A DNA stretch of 59,083 bases from a virus. The position numbers and the translations under genes were made by a program. The DNA lies in the IMG/VR virus record IMGVR_UViG_3300042568_000868, positions 1 through 59,083 of that record, one strand, 5' to 3'. Shown here piece by piece: positions 2,928-40,519 of the stretch (within the stretch, counting starts at the first letter, position 1; each line of letters opens with the position of its first letter). The notes beneath the pieces are model-generated. The model was not told the DNA's origin and made no database searches. It saw only the letters and a program-made list of their open reading frames with translations.

Positions 2928-4217
2928 TTAATTTTGAACAGTCCAACCTTTATTTGTAGCAATAGATGTATCGCAAGTTCCAGCACCAGGACATCCTGTA
3001 ATTTTAATAGCCTTGCCACTTACAGTAGGAAGTGATGTAAATAAAGCATTTAATGCAGATGCATTCATATTACAATATTGTACATCAACCTGTGGGCTTG
3101 AACCTCCGAAAGCACTTGTAGCGTTTGTCAGTATTATTCCTGTAATTGGGAGTGGAACGGTTGAGTTGCCGCCTATGCTTAATTTACTTAACTTAGCGCC
3201 GATAGTTAGTGATTGAGCTAGATTCTCACATCTATAAAATATATTTGTCCAGTTGCAATCCTGAGTTCTACTTCCCAAAAATTCAAGATTAGTAAGGTGC
3301 TTCAAATTACCACACAAATAGAACATATTTGTACAGTTAGTGTTTTTGTCATTGCCAACACCTGCTGGCAAATGCACCTCGTCTAAAGCAGTATTTGTAT
3401 CAAACATATAAGCAGTAGAGCCTGTTGAGCCCCAATCGCTTGCAGTTATATTGAACGTTCTAACCTTTCCACTATTTGATAAATAATATGTGTATGATGC
3501 AGTTGAACCTCCACTATACAGCGTATCCATTGTACCATTAATCACGCCAGTTCCATATAATGAGTATGTTCTAGATGTAGCAGAACCCATAGCAGGAAAA
3601 TTGAAATCCTCAAAACTCCCGCAATTATATGCGAAATAGTCAGAACTTGTAACGTTGCTTGCATCATAGATATTTACCTTTTTCAAAAATGGGCTTCTAA
3701 GTGGTGATACAGCAACGCCATTGCTGAACATTTGAGAGATATTAACCAATGAAGGTACATTAATTTCCGCCCATGCAACACAGCTATTTTGTTGGGTATA
3801 TTGTGCGCTTGTTTTTGCAACTTTGAAATACTTTATATCCGAACTTGCATTGTAAATGCGAACGGTGTAAGCCCAAACTTTCCACTCAGGAATCCACACA
3901 CCTAACCCGCTACCATTATTTTCTACATAAGTGTGAGATACTTGTGCGGTTAAGTTATTGCCAGCCGTTTGAGTAGTAAATGCTGTTGATACTCCACCTT
4001 CAATAACTCCATCGCCCCAATCAATAGAGTATGTTCCATCTGATGTGGTTTGAATAGCGAATCCATTTACTCCCCCATTATCAATACAGATCATCAATAT
4101 TTCACCAAGTTGAGCTTTGCCACTTATATTTGGAAAGCTATTGCCTTGATATGTTATTCCTATATTACTAATAGTTGGAACCCAGACTCCTCCTATATTT
4201 ATTTTCTGTATAGCCAT
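2928..4217 (-). CDS. Putative tail adhesin with BspA-like leucine-rich repeats
   Basis: The 429-aa protein opens with MAIQKINIGGVWVP and has a DGTYSIDWGDG segment (about residues 59-69) resembling the D-W-G-D-G turn of PKD-like domains. From about residue 150 a run of irregular repeats follows, with N-I-S-Q-M-F-S and N-M-F-Y-L-C-G-N-L-type signatures. This matches BspA/LRR5-type repeats used by gut Bacteroidetes and their phages for surface binding. It is the last of the tail-protein genes before the lysis block, so a receptor-binding role is likely. The domain reading is by eye. Confidence 0.7.
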   Translation of the reverse strand: MAIQKINIGGVWVPTISNIGITYQGNSFPNISGKAQLGEILMICIDNGGVNGFAIQTTSDGTYSIDWGDGVIEGGVSTAFTTQTAGNNLTAQVSHTYVENNGSGLGVWIPEWKVWAYTVRIYNASSDIKYFKVAKTSAQYTQQNSCVAWAEINVPSLVNISQMFSNGVAVSPLRSPFLKKVNIYDASNVTSSDYFAYNCGSFEDFNFPAMGSATSRTYSLYGTGVINGTMDTLYSGGSTASYTYYLSNSGKVRTFNITASDWGSTGSTAYMFDTNTALDEVHLPAGVGNDKNTNCTNMFYLCGNLKHLTNLEFLGSRTQDCNWTNIFYRCENLAQSLTIGAKLSKLSIGGNSTVPLPITGIILTNATSAFGGSSPQVDVQYCNMNASALNALFTSLPTVSGKAIKITGCPGAGTCDTSIATNKGWTVQN

Positions 4218-4218
4218 A

Positions 4219-4695
4219 TTAATTTCTATTCATTACGATTTCGTAAAATAATTCCTCGGTTGAAACCGGGCATTGTTTGTCTGTAAAATCTAATGGTATC
4301 GCCTGCAATTCTTCTATAGTTGTAGCATTTTTGATTGCTTGTATTTTTGCGTATCTCTCATCGCTTCTTTGCATAGTCCACGCAACCGCATTGGTACACT
4401 TTTCATATCCATGATTTTCAAATCCACTCCAAACTGGAGCAGGTAATACGCTATCGAAATTACTATCTATCATTGCTGTATAATTACTAGATACCATCTT
4501 GATTGCCATATCTTTCATTTCTTCCAGTGTGATCGTGCTGATTTTAATTTCGCATCTTAGAATATCTTCTATTGAAGCTCCTTCGTTATTTAAAAGAAAA
4601 TCTATTTGTTCTTCATTTAAAATAATAACGCCTTGAATATTGGACATATCAGCTTCCGTTATAGTAATTCTGTTTTTTAATATGTAGTAATTCAT
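4219..4695 (-). CDS. Small tail-region protein, possible fibre chaperone
   Basis: The 158-aa protein is mixed helical with no signal or membrane segment. It contains ITEADMSNIQGVIILNEEQI near the N-terminus and a helical C-terminal half with ATTIEELQAI. It is placed between two large adhesin-type genes, 1 bp after one and 7 bp before the other. Small proteins between fibre genes are often assembly chaperones, but no chaperone motif is recognised here. Confidence 0.5.
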   Translation of the reverse strand: MNYYILKNRITITEADMSNIQGVIILNEEQIDFLLNNEGASIEDILRCEIKISTITLEEMKDMAIKMVSSNYTAMIDSNFDSVLPAPVWSGFENHGYEKCTNAVAWTMQRSDERYAKIQAIKNATTIEELQAIPLDFTDKQCPVSTEELFYEIVMNRN

Positions 4696-4702
4696 AATTT
4701 AT

Positions 4703-6091
4703 TTAAATAAATACGTTATTAATGTCATTATTGTAAGCACACCTTCCGATCGAGGCCAGTCCTATCCAATTAGAATCATTAGGTACGTTAGGAATAGGTA
4801 ATCCACTTCTTAACTTTGTTTCTGCTAAATTCCAAACCAGCCAAACCTGTGTTCCTATTTTTACTGTTGGATATACTTGCGTATCATTTCCAATGTAGCT
4901 AGCGCAAGGCGTTCCATCTGCTTGTAGTTGCTCTGAAACTGTTGCTGGGCGGACTAGACGAATCGAACAACCATATTTTACGTTTGATGGTGCAATATAT
5001 GTTTCTGCAACATTACTAAAATTTAATACTTTAACGTAATCTGTAGAAAATACATAATCTTTAATTTGAAAAAGTCCGTATGCTTTCAAATAACTAAAAC
5101 TACCATCATCTAGTCGCATTCCACCCGCTCTAATTTCCATACTAAATAAGTTGACAGCATTAGAATTAGGCGGAAGCCAATAATCACTATTAGTAGACTT
5201 CATTCTACTAAGCGGTGCAAAATTAGTCAATAGATAATTAAAATCAGCAAGTAAGGGAACGGTCCAGTCATCACTACTTGTTATACTATTGGTTCCTGAT
5301 CCTTGAGTTGCATACCAGTTATACAGATAACCATATTTCATAGTCTTCTGTACAAAGTTATACTGATAACTAGATATGAATACATTATTCATATCATTAT
5401 TATAAGCGCATCTAGCACCAAAATTTGCAGTACCCCACGTAGCATTATCTGAGATATAGGTTATATCAGTTCCACCTCTATATTTAGTCTCTGCTAAATT
5501 GCAACCAAGCCATACTTGTGTGCCAATTTTTACAGTAGGGTATTGTAGTCCATCATTACCTATATATGGATCACAGGCACTTCCATCAATTTGCAACTGT
5601 TCATTTACGGTGGCTGCACGAACCAATCTGATTGCGAGCCCCATTGATTTTCCACCAGTAGCATCACCAAATCCGCCATTAGCTCCATTGTTATATATCA
5701 TGAAGTAGTAAGTCTGTGCTGCATAATACTCCCACATACGAAATTGATATCTTAAAGAACTAAATACACCATCACCATTTTGTCTAAACCCAGATCCTCT
5801 AAAGTTTAGATTATATATATTTAAAGCTCCTACATTGCCTTCCCAATAAATAACTCCATCTTCTTTAAGCCTAGCTCCTATATTACTTTGACCACCTGCA
5901 TCATAATTAACTAATGTAGTTGTATCTCTATTTGCTACAGCTCCTTGAGGAACCGACCATCCAACGTTAGACATTGCTAGCGGAATTATACTAGCATTTC
6001 CAGTACCTTCTATCACATAGTAGTTATATAGGTATCCATATTTAACTACTGGAAGTCCTGCAGATAGACCCATGTATCTTCTTCCTACCAT
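4703..6091 (-). CDS. Tail adhesin with two FISUMP (Fibrobacter paralogous) domains
   Basis: The 462-aa protein contains an internal duplication. Each half has a YGYLYN motif (about residues 18-24 and 253-259), a W-x-V-P segment, a GxRxxDGxF or GSGFRQNGDG turn and a SxGLAIRLVR-type strand. Each then ends in YPTVKIGTQVWL...NLAETK...CAYNNDxNNVFI. These are signatures of the Fibrobacter succinogenes major paralogous (FISUMP) domain, which has a C-type-lectin-like fold and is common in surface proteins of Bacteroidales and their phages. It likely binds a host surface glycan or protein. The gene overlaps the next fibre gene by one base at position 6091. Confidence 0.75.
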   Translation of the reverse strand: MVGRRYMGLSAGLPVVKYGYLYNYYVIEGTGNASIIPLAMSNVGWSVPQGAVANRDTTTLVNYDAGGQSNIGARLKEDGVIYWEGNVGALNIYNLNFRGSGFRQNGDGVFSSLRYQFRMWEYYAAQTYYFMIYNNGANGGFGDATGGKSMGLAIRLVRAATVNEQLQIDGSACDPYIGNDGLQYPTVKIGTQVWLGCNLAETKYRGGTDITYISDNATWGTANFGARCAYNNDMNNVFISSYQYNFVQKTMKYGYLYNWYATQGSGTNSITSSDDWTVPLLADFNYLLTNFAPLSRMKSTNSDYWLPPNSNAVNLFSMEIRAGGMRLDDGSFSYLKAYGLFQIKDYVFSTDYVKVLNFSNVAETYIAPSNVKYGCSIRLVRPATVSEQLQADGTPCASYIGNDTQVYPTVKIGTQVWLVWNLAETKLRSGLPIPNVPNDSNWIGLASIGRCAYNNDINNVFI

Positions 6092-9323: not shown

Positions 9324-10412
9324 TTATACTTCTAGCCAATTATATCCATCAGAGATTAGAGATATGAAAGATCTATTTGTCATTGGATCATACTGAAATC
9401 CTCCTGGAGTGTGATTCATATCTACATAAGTAACCTCGGAATATGTGCCATTTGCAGAATTTTTCAGTATTATAGTGTCAGATCCTTGGGCTGAAATCAT
9501 ATCGCCAAGTATATTTCCAAGTCCGCCTAGCTCAAAAAAGAATTTTATTTCTCTCCCTGCGGATTCTGAAGCTAAAGGGAGTGTAAGATTCACAGTATTA
9601 TGTACAAGACCTCTAGACCTTACAGAAAAGAAATTCTCTCCCTTATTTATTGAGTAGTTTTCATATGTTGAGCAGTTAACTGAATCTATATACACTACTG
9701 GAGCAGTCCAATTTCCCCATTCAAATCCATCTGGAATTACAGGAGCAGAATGATAAAGTCTATATGCGGTAGTGCCATTTGTAAAACTAGCTGTTTGCTT
9801 ATAATCAGCTACACTACCAGGAGCTGGGTTAATATCTTCTACTAATAGATTAAATAATGTAAATCCATTTATACTCCCAGACGACAATGTAACTGCGTAA
9901 CTACCAGGAGTAGTCATTGAGTCCAAGTCTGTTATTGGTATATTTATAAATGAGTCAGATAAGAACGATTGTGGAGTTTCTACTTTTTCGAATGTTCCTT
10001 CTGGGTATATACCTGCTGGAGTTGGGCCACCTGGACCTCCACTGGCAGGATAGAATTTTAATTTTCTCCTGTATATTACATCATTATCTAGTTTAACTTC
10101 TTGTATATACTCTTGATCGAATATAACTGTATCTCCTACAGAATATGTATGTAGTTCTAATAGACTATCAGATCCAAGTACTGCTTTGTGTGCTACATCT
10201 AGATTCGCAGTTTTTAGTGTAGCAAATCTAGTTCCACCATAGAAAGCATCAAGTTCTTGGTCTGTTTCTATTGTTATGTTTCGTGATAAATTAGACGCTT
10301 TTATATATTTTGTTGTTGGCACCAAGCCATCGACAACAGGTATTATAGTAGTATCAGTAGCAAGTCCTAGCTCTGTTAGCGCGCTTATTTTTTTTCCTTT
10401 TAATTGTGCCAT
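9324..10412 (-). CDS. Tail or appendage structural protein
   Basis: The 362-aa protein begins MAQLKGKKISALTEL, a short start that many crAss-like appendage proteins share with attachment domains. It has a proline/glycine-rich linker (ASGGPGGPTPAGIYPEG, about residues 124-140) that separates an N-terminal attachment part from a beta-rich C-terminal domain ending in an SLISDGYNWLEV strand. The layout is typical of a head- or tail-fibre protein. It lies 4 bp after the spike gene. Confidence 0.65.
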   Translation of the reverse strand: MAQLKGKKISALTELGLATDTTIIPVVDGLVPTTKYIKASNLSRNITIETDQELDAFYGGTRFATLKTANLDVAHKAVLGSDSLLELHTYSVGDTVIFDQEYIQEVKLDNDVIYRRKLKFYPASGGPGGPTPAGIYPEGTFEKVETPQSFLSDSFINIPITDLDSMTTPGSYAVTLSSGSINGFTLFNLLVEDINPAPGSVADYKQTASFTNGTTAYRLYHSAPVIPDGFEWGNWTAPVVYIDSVNCSTYENYSINKGENFFSVRSRGLVHNTVNLTLPLASESAGREIKFFFELGGLGNILGDMISAQGSDTIILKNSANGTYSEVTYVDMNHTPGGFQYDPMTNRSFISLISDGYNWLEV

Positions 10413-19728: not shown

Positions 19729-21774
19729 CTAAAAGTTTAAATCTACGACACTAGATCCAGATTTAAACCAAGTTGAACCAAATAGAGGCTTGTCGAATAA
19801 ATCCTTCTTCTTTTCTTCCTCTACTTTATTCTTTACAGTCATGTTATATAGTTGTTCCCTATATATCATACAACATTGTAACGCTCGAACTCTATCGAAG
19901 TTTCCTTTGTCGTTATATCTTATTAATTCTTCTAATAGCGGTTCAGATAATATCCTTTCTACATTTTTGCATCCAGGAGCAAATTCATCATTTAACCAAT
20001 CCTTTATAAGTATCTCGGAGTAAGCAATGATGCCTTTGGTCATGTGAATTCCTTTTCTCCTTTGCACCTTAGAGTTTCCTATGATATCACTAATAATATC
20101 AGGCTGATCTGCTAGTAGATAATCTTTGTGTTTGTTGGCGAAGTATGTAAATAGACCTTTCTTTTCATTCTCGTACAGCAATCTTGCATTGTAGTATAAT
20201 AGTAGTTTCATTACATTCTCGTAGTACTCATCTGCCGAATCTGGTCTTCCTGTATACTCAGCAACTATTATATCGTAATACTCTTCAAATCCTTGGAATC
20301 TCTTGTATATTATAGTTGACCCTAGAGATGTAGAGTTTGCGGCCTTATCAAAGTCATATGGGTCATTCCCACCAATATATAGACCGACTGGAGTATCTTT
20401 AGCTGGATGCTCCCATATAACTATAGAACCTGTCTGATCGTCGTCTTTGCCTAATGGATATTTAGTTATATCGCCTCTCTTTTTAACATTCCAAACCAGC
20501 TCTCCATTAACCCAGTTTAAATCACCCACTTGTTTATGATTTTGAAGGGCCTTATTCGTACGAATTCTAGCAAGCTGGGCCATTAGTTCTTTTTTAGGAA
20601 AGATGTTACCAGTGAGCTCCAAACAAGCCTCCTGAGGTGTTATAGGCTGTTCACTTATATATCTATCTATAGAACGTGCATCTGTAGCATTCTTAACTAC
20701 ATCCTCTCTTAATGACAGTACATAATCTTTAGCTTTCTCTGTGTATGTATTGCCATCATCATCCATGTATAATCTAGTACCATCATCATCTCTTACATCT
20801 AGATTAGTGTACTGAGGAATGAAGAATCCGCATTTATTTCCATGAGCGTTTTCATCCCATATATTATCTAATGGTAGGCAGTTATATCCATCTGGAGCAT
20901 AGAATAATTCACGCAAGCCTGTAAAGTCTTCTCCATCAGAACCTCCGGTTCCAAACACAATCATTAATCCATGAGCGATACCATCCTGCTCTACAGAAGG
21001 TCTAGCAATTTGCCATAACTCTAAAAGGTTAGGAAACTTACCTCCTTCTTCTAGTACAATTAAGGCTCCGCTTTTTCCACGAATTTTGTTAACGTCATTC
21101 TTAGTCGTAACGCCTATTATCTCAGATTTATATCCAACTTCTACTTTATTACCTGCATCATCAGTAGTAACTACAGAGGCACGTCTATGCATCTTTGTAT
21201 CTACCTTTTGACGCTTCTTAGCCCATGGTGTATTTTCATCAATAAAGTCCATATACTCCCATGCTTTTGTAATGATACCATCCTTTACAAGGAACTCATT
21301 CTCTGCAGCAAAAGCAAATGATTTAGACTCTGGTATGAAGTAATAATTCCTACACATCATGGATCCGTTTTTAAAACTATAGCCTTTCCTTCGTGATTTC
21401 AGAACAGCTAGATGCTTCCCTTTGTCTTGAGCTTCCTGTACAGCACAAAAGAAATAGTAGTCATAATCATAGAAGTCTGGGAACTCTCTAACCTTCTCCC
21501 TTTTCTGTATGATATTGCCATTTCTATCTTTAACTTCTTTAGTTACAATACGAAGGATAGGGCAGTAGTTTAGATAGAAGTAATTGAAACCACTAATCCA
21601 ATCTCCGTCCTCAGCTGTATATCCATTAAGGCATCTATCAGTCTCTTCATCCCAAAATGCTAGGTACTCACTAGTTCCACTTGGTAATAAACAGTAAACC
21701 CCGTGCTTCTTGAAATGAAGCGCAGGCGCCTGGAATTTTGAAGAGTTAACTATCTTTTTTGAGAAATCTATCAT
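19729..21774 (-). CDS. terL: Terminase large subunit
   Basis: The 681-aa protein is the packaging motor and nuclease. The N-terminal ATPase has a Walker A-like KSRRKGYSFK (residues about 126-135) and Walker B ALIVLEEGG (237-245). The C-terminal RNase H-like nuclease begins near GLYIGGNDPYDFD (about residue 470). The first codons, MIDFSKKIVNSSKF, recur in diverged form at the start of the upstream endonuclease gene. Its ATG overlaps the stop of that gene (ATGA), so terL is probably translated by coupling or re-initiation. Confidence 0.94.
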   Translation of the reverse strand: MIDFSKKIVNSSKFQAPALHFKKHGVYCLLPSGTSEYLAFWDEETDRCLNGYTAEDGDWISGFNYFYLNYCPILRIVTKEVKDRNGNIIQKREKVREFPDFYDYDYYFFCAVQEAQDKGKHLAVLKSRRKGYSFKNGSMMCRNYYFIPESKSFAFAAENEFLVKDGIITKAWEYMDFIDENTPWAKKRQKVDTKMHRRASVVTTDDAGNKVEVGYKSEIIGVTTKNDVNKIRGKSGALIVLEEGGKFPNLLELWQIARPSVEQDGIAHGLMIVFGTGGSDGEDFTGLRELFYAPDGYNCLPLDNIWDENAHGNKCGFFIPQYTNLDVRDDDGTRLYMDDDGNTYTEKAKDYVLSLREDVVKNATDARSIDRYISEQPITPQEACLELTGNIFPKKELMAQLARIRTNKALQNHKQVGDLNWVNGELVWNVKKRGDITKYPLGKDDDQTGSIVIWEHPAKDTPVGLYIGGNDPYDFDKAANSTSLGSTIIYKRFQGFEEYYDIIVAEYTGRPDSADEYYENVMKLLLYYNARLLYENEKKGLFTYFANKHKDYLLADQPDIISDIIGNSKVQRRKGIHMTKGIIAYSEILIKDWLNDEFAPGCKNVERILSEPLLEELIRYNDKGNFDRVRALQCCMIYREQLYNMTVKNKVEEEKKKDLFDKPLFGSTWFKSGSSVVDLNF

Positions 21775-22538
21775 CCTTTGCTCTTTTTATATTTTTTACC
21801 CTTATTCATTTTCCCAGCAGAACTTCTCTTTCTAAATAAATCAGTATCTCTTTTCCCTGATAATACATAATTGATTTTTAACTCCAATTCTTCTTTAGTG
21901 AATGAAAAAATATATCTTTTGTTTGATATAAATCTTCCATTTTGGTTGTTGCAAATGTAAGATATACTTCTAGAATCTACAAAAGTTTTCCTACTCATCT
22001 CTGATATGCTTTCTGCTGTATAGTTTGTTTTATTTAAAATATCAAAGCCGAAAACATATTTTCTTGCTTCAATAGCTACTTTTGGAATTCTATTTTTTGA
22101 TGAAAGTTTCATCTTTTCTATAGTATCTTTTGTGTGTTTAAACCCAAGTCTGCCGCTATCACCTCCAGGAGTTGAATTATATCCATTCTTATATGAATCA
22201 TAAATTTCAATATACATGCATTCAATAATGTTCAATTCTTTTGAAATAGACTCTTTACTTCTATCTTGTATATTTATTGCACATAATATACTGCATGTAA
22301 AATTATCTATTCCATATTTTGATATCGCAATGTATAGTTTTAGCTTACTACTTCCTTTGTTTATTGTTCTATTATGATGAAGCAATCTATTTCTTATATC
22401 TACAGACTGTCCTATATAAACTCTTCCGTTTATTTGATTTTCTATTTTGTATATACCGCAATTCCCTCTAGCAATCGCTTCTGGATTACTTAGAGGGAAT
22501 TTATCTGAGTTTACGACCTTTTTATTAAAGTCTATCAT
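21771..22538 (-). CDS. GIY-YIG homing endonuclease fused to a copy of the terL N-terminus
   Basis: The 255-aa protein starts MIDFNKKVVNSDKF, clearly homologous to the first 14 residues of TerL next door. It then enters a GIY-YIG nuclease domain: CGIYKIENQINGRVYIGQS (about residues 27-45), R49 and a later E with GYNSTPGG. A NUMOD3-like segment (SGRLGFKHTKDTIEKMKLSS, about 132-151) and a C-terminal helix-turn-helix NUMOD1-like region with SISYICNNQNGRFIS follow. Such proteins make site-specific breaks that copy their own gene into related phages. The fused start suggests insertion at the 5' end of terL. Confidence 0.9.
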   Translation of the reverse strand: MIDFNKKVVNSDKFPLSNPEAIARGNCGIYKIENQINGRVYIGQSVDIRNRLLHHNRTINKGSSKLKLYIAISKYGIDNFTCSILCAINIQDRSKESISKELNIIECMYIEIYDSYKNGYNSTPGGDSGRLGFKHTKDTIEKMKLSSKNRIPKVAIEARKYVFGFDILNKTNYTAESISEMSRKTFVDSRSISYICNNQNGRFISNKRYIFSFTKEELELKINYVLSGKRDTDLFRKRSSAGKMNKGKKYKKSKG

Positions 22539-32152: not shown

Positions 32153-32223
32153 GGCCCTGTCGTCTATGGGTAGGACGCCACACTTTCAGCGTGGAAAACG
32201 AAGTTCGAGTCTTCGTGGGGCTA
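32153..32223 (+). tRNA. tRNA-Glu (anticodon TTC)
   Basis: A full cloverleaf is visible. The acceptor pairs GGCCCTG with TGGGGCT (G-U pairs included). The D arm is GTC/GAC, the anticodon loop is CTTTCAG (TTC at positions 34-36), and the T arm is CGAAG-TTCGAGT-CTTCG. There is an A-C mismatch at the base of the anticodon loop. The CCA end is not encoded. It opens a 1.1-kb non-coding region. Confidence 0.9.
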
Positions 32224-33229
32224 CAATAAAACAAAAATACTCTAAGATTGCCGCGCGGGCTACAAATGAGCAAGAACAATATTTGCAAGAGTATTTACTG
32301 TTTTTAGCAGGACATGTAGTGGTGTGAAACCACTTTTTCACTATGTCTTGCTTTTTAAATAAACCAATCTCAGATTGAAGCAACAGATAATCTAAGGACG
32401 TAAAAAATTCTGAGAATAGCCTCTTCGTAATGAATGTAGCTCAGGGAGACGATTATCGACCTAATGCAGTAGGTCAGTTTGTTAGATGTAGTAAAATCCA
32501 GTGAAAAACAGCGGTATTTATAATCCGAAATTAATAAGTATTACTCCACTACAAGGACTGAGATTGGTTTTAAATACAGTCGGAAAACATTGACACGACT
32601 TTAAATGAGAATACTAACCCTGAATACAGGGTGATTGAAATCAAGATAAACGTAGCTGCCGCGAAAGCAATCTGTAGAAATACACAGTCATAAATTACGA
32701 ATTCTTCAATGGGGCCAGAATGAGAGAGTTCGGGCATTTCAATCGGAGTAATCCTAGATGTGTTGTTTCCTTGAGAAAGGAATGATTGAATATATGGAAG
32801 CAGGACTACCTATATCAACACAAATGAGTTCTCAGCAAAGATGATTAATCCAACGGAGGAAAGCATAGTAATATGTGAAGGACACTCAAAAGGGATGCAG
32901 ATAACCAAAGTCTTAGAAAGGTCTGTAATCATCGTGACCCTATTATCTTATTAGTTTGTGCCTATAAAAACAAGGCTGTATAACTGTTCTAATAGGATAT
33001 TAGGGTGCTAAAAACAAATATATAATAATTGATGCATCTAAGGGGTCTCCGATGTAATATTCGGGGGCAAGTCTAACCCAAAGCCTCTCATTATTGTATT
33101 AATATCTATATTTTATATCAAACGGCAAGGAATCGGGTCCGATATAAATTACTCATCCATATATAAAGTATAGATACAACAGTGATAGGGTTGCATACCA
33201 TAAGAACTGCACCCTATCCATTTTAACAG
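32224..33229 (+). ncRNA. Candidate large structured RNA (~1.0 kb) between tRNA-Glu and a tRNA-like element
   Basis: No open frame of note lies here. Many hairpins are present: the bulged 14-bp stem at 32306-32352, GACCTA/TAGGTC near 32458-32475, ACCCTG-AATA-CAGGGT near 32620-32635, TTCCTT-GAGA-AAGGAA near 32766-32785 and GATAGGGT/ACCCTATC at 33184-33218. The longest pairs 32938-32954 with 32989-33005 over 17 positions with one mismatch. Density and tRNA neighbourhood recall large phage RNAs such as GOLLD and ROOL, but no sequence match is claimed. It may be one RNA or several. Confidence 0.5.
32306..32356 (+). terminator. Strong hairpin with T tract
   Basis: AGCAGGACATGTAGTG pairs with CACTATGTCTTGCT (32339-32352) with a two-base bulge. 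An inner GTGGT/ACCAC stem continues it, and TTTTT follows. It could terminate the tRNA transcript or be a domain of the larger RNA. Confidence 0.6.
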
Positions 33230-33299
33230 GTCACCTACTTCAGTTGATGATAGCCAATTGAAGCCACGGAAGAAAGGAGTTCGAATCTCTAAGGTGGCA
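33230..33299 (+). ncRNA. tRNA-like element without an anticodon arm
   Basis: The acceptor stem GTCACCT/AGGTGGC (7 bp, one G-U) and a T arm with the canonical loop TTCGAAT (33280-33286) are clear. A73 is at 33299. In place of the D and anticodon arms there is one 9-bp hairpin, CTTCAGTTG/CAATTGAAG, with an 8-nt loop, then a single-stranded linker. No anticodon can be read. It could be a decayed tRNA or a tRNA mimic. It stands 50 bp before the next gene. Confidence 0.55.
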
Positions 33300-38337: not shown

Positions 38338-38410
38338 TACTATTTAGCTCAGTTGGTAGAGCATCCGCAGTAGGGGAGTGTCACCAGTTCGAATCTGGTA
38401 ATGGTAGCCA
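38338..38410 (+). tRNA. tRNA-like gene with encoded CCA and a shortened anticodon arm
   Basis: Acceptor TACTATT/AATGGTA, D arm GCTC-AGTTGGTA-GAGC, T arm ACCAG-TTCGAAT-CTGGT, G73 and CCA are all canonical. The anticodon part (38364-38382) is 19 nt instead of 22 or so. It best pairs TCCGC with GGGGA around only 4 nt (AGTA), so no 7-nt anticodon loop can be drawn and the amino acid is unknown. It may be a deleted tRNA or a deliberate mimic. The genomic CCA suggests a charged or processed end. Confidence 0.65.
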
Positions 38411-39892: not shown

Positions 39893-40519
39893 ATGGCGGA
39901 TGGAAGAACGATAAGCCATAGATTCTTGGTTGAGTCTATGGTAACAAAGCTATCTAACCTTAATATACATAATATGAATGTAAAAGAAGAAGTAGAGAAG
40001 GCTAAAAATGGGTCAGAAAAGGCCTTTACTAATCTGTATAATGAATTCCAAAAGGTAATTTATGTAGCGATATACAATATAGTAAAAAACAAAGAAGTCG
40101 CAGAAGACTTAACATCTGAGACATTTATAAAGATTTACAAAAACTTACACAAATACACAAAAGACTTTTCATTTGTTATGTGGGCTAAAACAATTGCAAA
40201 TCATCATGCTATTGATTATATACGTAGCGGTAAGAATCAATACAACACTCAATCACTTGACGATGAGATGGCAAATGTTATAGAGATTTCTGATTATACA
40301 GATCCTGAAACAAGCCTTATAAACAAAGAGATGGCATTACTAGAAAACGATGCCATTAAGTCATTAACCAAAAGAGAGTATGAAATAGTAAAATTAAGAG
40401 AAGAAGAAATTCCATACTCCAAAATAGCGGAGGAACTTGGAGTTAGCATAGGGACTGTAAAGAGTTCTATTCACAATTATCGTAAAAAAATTAAAAAATA
40501 CATAACCAAAAAAGAATGA
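39893..40519 (+). CDS. ECF-type sigma-70 family factor
   Basis: The 208-aa protein has sigma region 2 with AFTNLYNEFQKVIYVAIYNI (about residues 45-64), VAEDLTSETFIKIYKNLHKY and MWAKTIANHHAIDYIR. Region 4 is a helix-turn-helix: LTKREYEIVKLREEEIPYSK-IAEELGVSIGTVKSSIHNYR (about 158-197). Region 1 and region 3 are absent, as in ECF factors. It should bind host core RNA polymerase and direct it to a phage promoter class, perhaps the middle or late genes. Confidence 0.9.
   Translation: MADGRTISHRFLVESMVTKLSNLNIHNMNVKEEVEKAKNGSEKAFTNLYNEFQKVIYVAIYNIVKNKEVAEDLTSETFIKIYKNLHKYTKDFSFVMWAKTIANHHAIDYIRSGKNQYNTQSLDDEMANVIEISDYTDPETSLINKEMALLENDAIKSLTKREYEIVKLREEEIPYSKIAEELGVSIGTVKSSIHNYRKKIKKYITKKE

Follow-up and report, generated by a model that had tools for sequence, protein, structure and literature searches.

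Our analysis of a 59,083-base virus record (hereafter the window, meaning this whole stretch of DNA), from a Bacteroidota phage, indicates that the block at 32153-33299 is, on comparative grounds, a cassette made up of several self-contained structured RNAs, all encoded on the plus strand, not one large RNA. The principal module, termed module C, belongs to a family of phage RNAs (class 1), and covariation among the members shows this RNA to be a structure kept by selection. The family has no match in Rfam 15, and we found no description of it in the open-access journal papers searched. With modest confidence, we lean towards the interpretation that module C is a gene for a predicted trans-acting non-coding RNA of this uncatalogued but widespread family. 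The interest of the class-1 RNA lies in its very clear covariation across about 100 distinct viral sequences and in its presence in an isolated phage whose host is named, the Cellulophaga phage phi14:2 of Cellulophaga baltica #14.

Composition of the block and its relatives

The major head protein, terminase and portal encoded in the window match PHROG head-and-packaging families. ARAGORN calls two tRNAs in it, the tRNA-Glu that opens the block and a tRNA-Tyr at 38338-38410; no Rfam family other than tRNA scores above threshold in the window, and no plus-strand ORF of 40 or more amino acids lies between 32327 and 33350. The block and the gene following it can be parsed thus:

32153-32224, plus strand: tRNA-Glu, anticodon UUC (ARAGORN; Rfam RF00005, 44.2 bits)
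32236-32295, plus strand: module A, about 60 nt, closed by AATACTC/GAGTATT, with the core AAGATTGCCGCGCGGGCTACAAATGAGCAA
32306-32356, plus strand: bulged hairpin followed by a T tract, intrinsic-terminator-like by its sequence and kept in the related virus L231
32363-32568, plus strand: module B, a multibranched domain closed by ACCAATCTCAG/CTGAGATTGGT
32386-32392/32451-32457 and 32458-32463/32470-32475, plus strand: inner helices of module B
32577-33011, plus strand: module C, the class-1 family member, with its core match to the covariance model (CM) R1 at 32727-32838
33012-33229, plus strand: stretch D, stable hairpins
33230-33299, plus strand: anticodon-less tRNA-like element with counterparts in L230 and L231
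33350-33613, plus strand: ORF of 87 aa downstream of the tRNA-like element, with a similar ORF, recognized by eye, at L230:5655-5921

A sequence-only reading of this DNA had drawn attention to a canonical tRNA-Glu, a bulged hairpin with a T tract, a 17-position stem and a closing tRNA-like element, and these observed features are confirmed as real. Its further suggestion of a large structured RNA beside a tRNA holds in so far as a conserved structured non-coding RNA is present, but not as a single kilobase-sized molecule bounded by both tRNA structures. An ornate RNA of this kind, spanning about 1 kb with tRNA-Glu and the tRNA-like element at its ends, would fit the finding that each intervening stretch surpasses its dinucleotide shuffles in folding (z = -3.07 for 32225-32576, -2.36 for 32577-33011 and -3.04 for 33012-33230, which is essentially stretch D), as well as the order tRNA-Glu, module A, module B, tRNA-like element that is kept in L231. 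However, L231 is without the RNA core and has a 138-aa ORF between modules A and B, after the T-tract hairpin; moreover, the terminator-like hairpin splits the block of the window itself. In L230, the nearest virus by a 413-aa neighbouring gene (41% identity), about 3.4 kb separate the core (394-508) from tRNA-Glu, and about 5 kb separate it from the tRNA-like element, which immediately precedes the 87-aa-type gene that starts at 5655. We therefore regard the single large RNA as improbable. Because the tRNA-like element holds its place upstream of the 87-aa-type gene in L230 without the class-1 RNA adjacent to it, it is to be viewed as a separate module. The 87-aa protein itself matches no family in PHROGs or Pfam, and no relatives were found by peptide pattern.

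The 5′ part of the cassette is preserved in L231, which shows 90% column identity to the window over about 210 nt comprising the tRNA-Glu gene, module A and the hairpin with its T tract; the tRNA-Glu counterparts are L231:8918-8990 and L230:3867-3957. Module A has homologues among the viral contigs only in L231/L232, with its closing stem compensated in L231 (AATATTC/GAATATT), and no Rfam match. Module B, with homologues in L231 and L236, is likewise a covarying structure: double changes are seen at two pairs of its closing stem (CCAAUCUCAG/CUGAGAUUGG versus UCAAUUUCAG/CUGAAAUUGA), at one of the second helix and at four of the third (GACCUA/UAGGUC versus AAUCAC/GUGAUU). In L236, the module B copy is followed by a tRNA-like element (read by eye). 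A further match in L235 was set aside as a chance one, since the rest of the module is missing there. Stretch D had no homologue among the relative loci compared.

The class-1 RNA, its covariation and the class-2 variant

The class-1 family emerged from plain blastn of the window against phages, independently of any covariance model: the sole meaningful non-tRNA match was to phi14:2, a crAss-like member of the Steigviridae (77% across approximately 102 nt, E = 3e-8). This nearest annotated relative of the RNA falls where the phi14:2 annotation has small hypothetical proteins on the minus strand, and a tmRNA follows about 0.8 kb further on. Neither a megablast of 24 kb against phages nor an exact 24-mer of the window core against the viral contigs returned a match. 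A motif derived from the window and phi14:2 (TTGAGAAA-N25-55-ATGAGTTCTCAGC) matched at least 119 viral contigs, and all but a few chance matches share a common architecture. Altogether, our searches, which covered virus contigs without host names and in part fragmentary records, recovered at least 97 distinct class-1 cores and at least 45 distinct cores of a second class described below. The core of module C scores 83 bits against CM R1 (E = 6.5e-18), the window itself being in the training set of that model. Its parts are:

32578-32600, plus strand: hairpin H1, AGTCG-gaAAACATTGAca-CGACT
32617-32632, plus strand: hairpin ACCCTG-AATA-CAGGGT, present in those relatives whose GUAA hairpin is split
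32745-32754, plus strand: GUAA (GNRA) tetraloop hairpin, GGA-GUAA-UCC
32759-32765 with 32816-32822, plus strand: stem Pa, enclosing hairpin Pb and a variable hairpin
32766-32782, plus strand: hairpin Pb, with TTTCC (32766-32770), loop TTGAGAAA (32771-32778) and GGAA (32779-32782)
32829-32835, plus strand: pseudoknot partner TTCTCAG, pairing with TTGAGAA (32771-32777) of the Pb loop
32936-33011, plus strand: terminal hairpin GACCCTATTATCTTATTAG/CTAATAGGATATTAGGGTGC plus GCTAA

In the consensus order, H1 (loop AAACAUUGA) is followed by the GUAA-tetraloop hairpin, then by Pa with the enclosed Pb and variable hairpin, and then by UUCUCAG, the pairing partner of the Pb loop (CUUGAGAA); thereafter come an optional stem and the terminal hairpin GACCCU...AGGGUGCUAA. 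The near-invariant 3′ GCUAA is a further feature. In some members, including the window, the GUAA hairpin is split by an insertion, and the additional ACCCTG/CAGGGT hairpin of the window appears by eye in relatives as ATCCTG/CAGGAT, ACCATG/CATGGT and the like. Module C displays the core, the pseudoknot UUGAGAA x UUCUCAG, H1 and the terminal hairpin of the family.

In a set of 69 sequences with mutual identity below 80%, 96.1% of the cells are paired, and 16 of the 24 pairs exhibit double compensatory changes; the covariation score is 0.450, as against 0.116 for shuffled and at most 0.096 for slid controls. Stem Pa is paired in 99.6% of cells with double changes in 6/7 pairs, its variants among viruses including AUGUGUUG/CAACACA, ACGUGUUG/CAACGCG, ACGUGAG/CUCACGU and ACAUGCAG/CUGCGUG; the corresponding values are 94.9% and 4/4 for Pb and 88.8% and 6/6 for the GUAA helix. 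An H1 stem of at least four pairs is found in 76 of 87 relatives (3′-side shuffles: mean 49.8, maximum 58). Likewise, the terminal hairpin of 51 long-loop relatives has a pairing value of 6.66, compared with a maximum of 5.73 in 200 shuffles. This hairpin, in which 32936-32954 pairs with 32989-33008, is the 17-position stem of the sequence-only reading; it is genuine, but it proves to be a variable extension, with a loop of 6-121 nt across 65 relatives. The loss of stems without compensation, for which we looked among the relatives, gave way to its opposite: the stems are kept, with compensation.

Since the members of the first set were picked by their pseudoknot letters, the constancy of the pseudoknot there is no evidence for it; hence, a second search used Pa and Pb only. 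It returned 69 distinct matches, 10 of which have a non-consensus loop, and all 10 of these loops still pair with the 3′ flank through 5-7 contiguous pairs. Both sides are changed in L151 (UUUGGAA x UUCCAAG) and L147 (UGUUGA x UCAACA). In L173 the pairing is broken, so the pseudoknot is not absolute. The peripheral parts of the RNA are mosaic: window positions 32823-32953 share 85% identity with L053, although Pa belongs to a different type there.

The Pa/Pb-only search also brought out class 2 (e.g., L180, L213, L152, L146 and L157), in which the partner of the Pb loop lies within a hairpin loop (GAGG-acUUCUCAu-CCUC), i.e., a kissing loop. In many cases the hairpin bearing it is placed directly 5′ of a tRNA or tRNA-like element. 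Several class-2 RNAs have, in addition, their own 5′ domain (GATAGTG...CACTATC). In L185 (9488-9600), a class-1 5′ domain is fused to a class-2 3′ hairpin, a chimera which suggests that the two classes recombine.

The anticodon-less tRNA-like element and its kind

The element closing the block has no anticodon arm and was called as a tRNA by neither ARAGORN nor Rfam. It consists of:

33230-33236/33292-33298, plus strand: acceptor stem of 7 bp, GTCACCT/AGGTGGC, with one G-U
33239-33246/33255-33262, plus strand: arm of 8 bp with loop ATGATAGC, replacing the D and anticodon arms
33277-33289, plus strand: T arm GAG-TTCGAAT-CTC

When the window is scanned for the combination of a 7-bp acceptor and a T arm, three sites emerge (this element, the tRNA-Tyr and one more) versus 0.9 in block-shuffled sequence, a count that does not by itself exclude chance; chance is excluded by the recurrence of the element in two related viruses. 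The counterparts in the window, L230 and L231 share the loops AUGAUAGC and UUCGAAU, and the arm between them is re-paired (UUCAGUUG/CAAUUGAA, CAUAGG/CCUGUG and UUAUUGGG/CCUAAUAA), with double changes in five of its eight pairs. The acceptor likewise pairs in all three, albeit in a slightly shifted register (GUCACCU/AGGUGGC, GCCAAC/GUUGGC and GCCACU/AGUGGC). The 87-aa-type gene follows in the window and L230, whereas in L231 the next feature is another long tRNA-like structure. The latter (10039-10240) has the acceptor GGGGATAG/CTATCCCC, a T arm and an insert of about 190 nt, and is called neither tRNA nor tmRNA.

The general shape recalls tmRNA and tRNA (RF00023, RF00005), in that the element has an acceptor stem and a T arm, as does the tRNA-like domain of tmRNA, and both are without an anticodon arm. 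It differs in its single 8-bp arm with the conserved loop and in having no tag reading frame; ARAGORN and Rfam detect no tmRNA in the window. Across 1.6 Mb of loci, 143 tRNA-like elements with a full acceptor and T arm were missed by ARAGORN, as against 5 in shuffled sequence, making them a second lead beside the class-1 RNA; we found no description of anticodon-less phage elements of this kind in the open-access journal papers searched. Thirty-four of them (24%) stand at most 60 nt before an ORF, compared with 13% of random positions. The element at 33230-33299 most likely marks a site where an mRNA 5′ end is made. In RNAs built on tRNA scaffolds and in tRNA punctuation, processing enzymes can use tRNA-shaped ends that flank an insert with no decoding role or that sit at the boundaries of mRNAs. 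The present elements differ from those in being a set of 143 in phage genomes, with their processing being putative.

Degenerate tRNA-like genes are frequent in the virus set, which would agree with the block being a decayed tRNA operon with meaningless spacers. Yet the double compensatory changes in the class-1 core, module B and the tRNA-like arm imply selection on structure, and refute decay for these three parts; stretch D could still be such a remnant. For the block as a whole, we consider decay very improbable.

Arrays of anticodon-less tRNA-Leu-like elements were observed in L157 (7991-12207), L170, L216 and others, with up to 11 in a single 14-kb locus; their ends are near-constant (AGTCAGGTGGCGGAATTGG ... 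CAGGTTCGAATCCTGTCCTGACTAC) and their inserts hypervariable. They look like natural tRNA scaffolds.

Distribution, genomic neighbours and possible roles

Among 20 whole records, 19 matched the class-1 model, and 17 of them have exactly one copy. The exceptions are the L037 record with a tandem pair and the L015 record, where a strong match is accompanied by a weak one of 25 bits. In the L037 tandem (4075-4531), as in those of L055 and L121, the second RNA begins a few bases past the GCTAA of the first. The phage phi4:1 gave no core match; of the RNA's parts it has the terminal hairpin alone, directly ahead of a CDS. The family is virus-restricted, with a single genuine copy found in 84,980 prokaryotic species genomes, on a Sphingobacteriales MAG contig; matches other than this one (L128) are chance matches, the remainder of the core being absent there. 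For 28 of the 85 elements with full flanks, a tRNA, tmRNA or tRNA-like element lies within 300 nt on the same strand, versus 9.6% of random positions. None of the 85 has such a neighbour solely on the opposite strand; random positions split about evenly. tmRNA genes adjoin several class-1 relatives.

These neighbourhoods lend themselves to a mechanism for the trans-acting interpretation. Longer phage transcripts would be cut to release the class-1 RNA, with RNase P and RNase Z probably trimming at the neighbouring tRNAs and tRNA-like elements, as these enzymes accept minimal acceptor-T-arm substrates. By way of its pseudoknot in class 1, or its kissing loop in class 2, the released RNA would then adopt a compact and stable fold and act in the infected cell, where it would probably influence translation or serve as an RNA scaffold. 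More speculatively, the large Bacteroidota phages might own an RNA-based system in which anticodon-less tRNA-like elements, as processing marks or natural scaffolds on the transcripts, deliver class-1/2 RNAs that help to control translation in infection, a proposal that we hold to be doubtful at this stage. Counting against trans action, the tRNA/tmRNA neighbourhood is limited to one third of the elements. Further, the terminator-like hairpin at 32306-32356 stands between tRNA-Glu and modules B and C, so that co-transcription with the tRNA may be partial. On the supporting side, a host-type promoter motif that would serve the RNA alone is not clearly enriched before H1 (4/87 versus 2.5%). The window encodes a sigma-70-type factor (39893-40519; Pfam Sigma70_r2, r4), and with such a factor the phage's own promoters may deviate from the host consensus for which we scanned.

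Twenty-one of the 67 elements with a defined 3′ end sit at most 60 nt upstream of the ATG of an ORF; hence, a cis-acting 5′ leader would fit too. This would be a general mRNA element (for stability, translation enhancement or as an exonuclease-resistant fold) preceding whatever gene follows. The lone terminal hairpin of phi4:1 just before a CDS is in keeping with such a role, and the three-way junction with its loop-to-3′-flank pseudoknot resembles, in outline, exonuclease-resistant RNAs. However, there is usually one copy per genome, whereas an mRNA element of general use would be expected more than once; several copies precede tmRNA or tRNA-like elements, not ORFs; and such ORFs as begin no more than 120 nt downstream mostly show no relationship among themselves. 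The last of these observations also led us to reject a riboswitch for one type of gene. We accordingly see the leader as a possible but rather unlikely explanation.

Catalysis is a further option, with the RNA being an intron remnant or a self-cleaving ribozyme that frees adjacent RNAs. The compact pseudoknotted core, the GNRA hairpin and the near-invariant 3′ end are compatible with it, as is a twister-P1-like sequence in L231 (3827-3885, 52.5 bits, E = 1.3e-9, under the Rfam gathering score). Against this, no Rfam model of a group I intron, a group II intron or a ribozyme matched either the block, at permissive thresholds, or the cores of the relatives, the examples examined are intergenic, and no cleavage-site signature was identified. 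Hence, a catalytic function strikes us as improbable.

Returning to the trans-acting reading, the closest parallels are GOLLD and ROOL, phage RNAs near tRNA islands that form RNA cages via kissing loops and other contacts (PMC12286853). As with the class-1 RNA, these are structured RNAs of phages or prophages, of unknown function, often near tRNA islands and with pseudoknots or kissing loops (PMC12286853). In contrast to them, the class-1 RNA has another conserved core and measures about 200-430 nt, versus 659 nt for ROOL env-120 and over 800 nt for many GOLLD RNAs; their covariance models matched neither the window nor its relatives, with the block scanned to E = 10. Thus, the class-1 family, known here from its sequences, possibly works like GOLLD and ROOL, while by covariance model it is not a member of either. 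It joins them as a further case of large phages keeping structured RNAs beside translation genes. RNA C and RNA D of phage T4 are likewise stable RNAs, which have no assigned function and share their locus with phage tRNAs; their likeness to the class-1 RNA is one of description, and the host of T4 is unrelated. The single copy, the small core and the isolate phi14:2 render the question of class-1 function testable.

Elsewhere in the window, the GC and AT skews flip sign at about 29000, the point at which the large ORFs pass from one coding strand to the other and two divergent gene blocks meet. A GIY-YIG-like ORF (21771-22538, minus strand) adjoins the terminase gene (19729-21774, minus strand), and its start, MIDFNKKVVNSDKF, resembles that of the terminase, MIDFSKKIVNSSKF; one may ask whether it is a homing-endonuclease insertion with a duplicated N-terminus.
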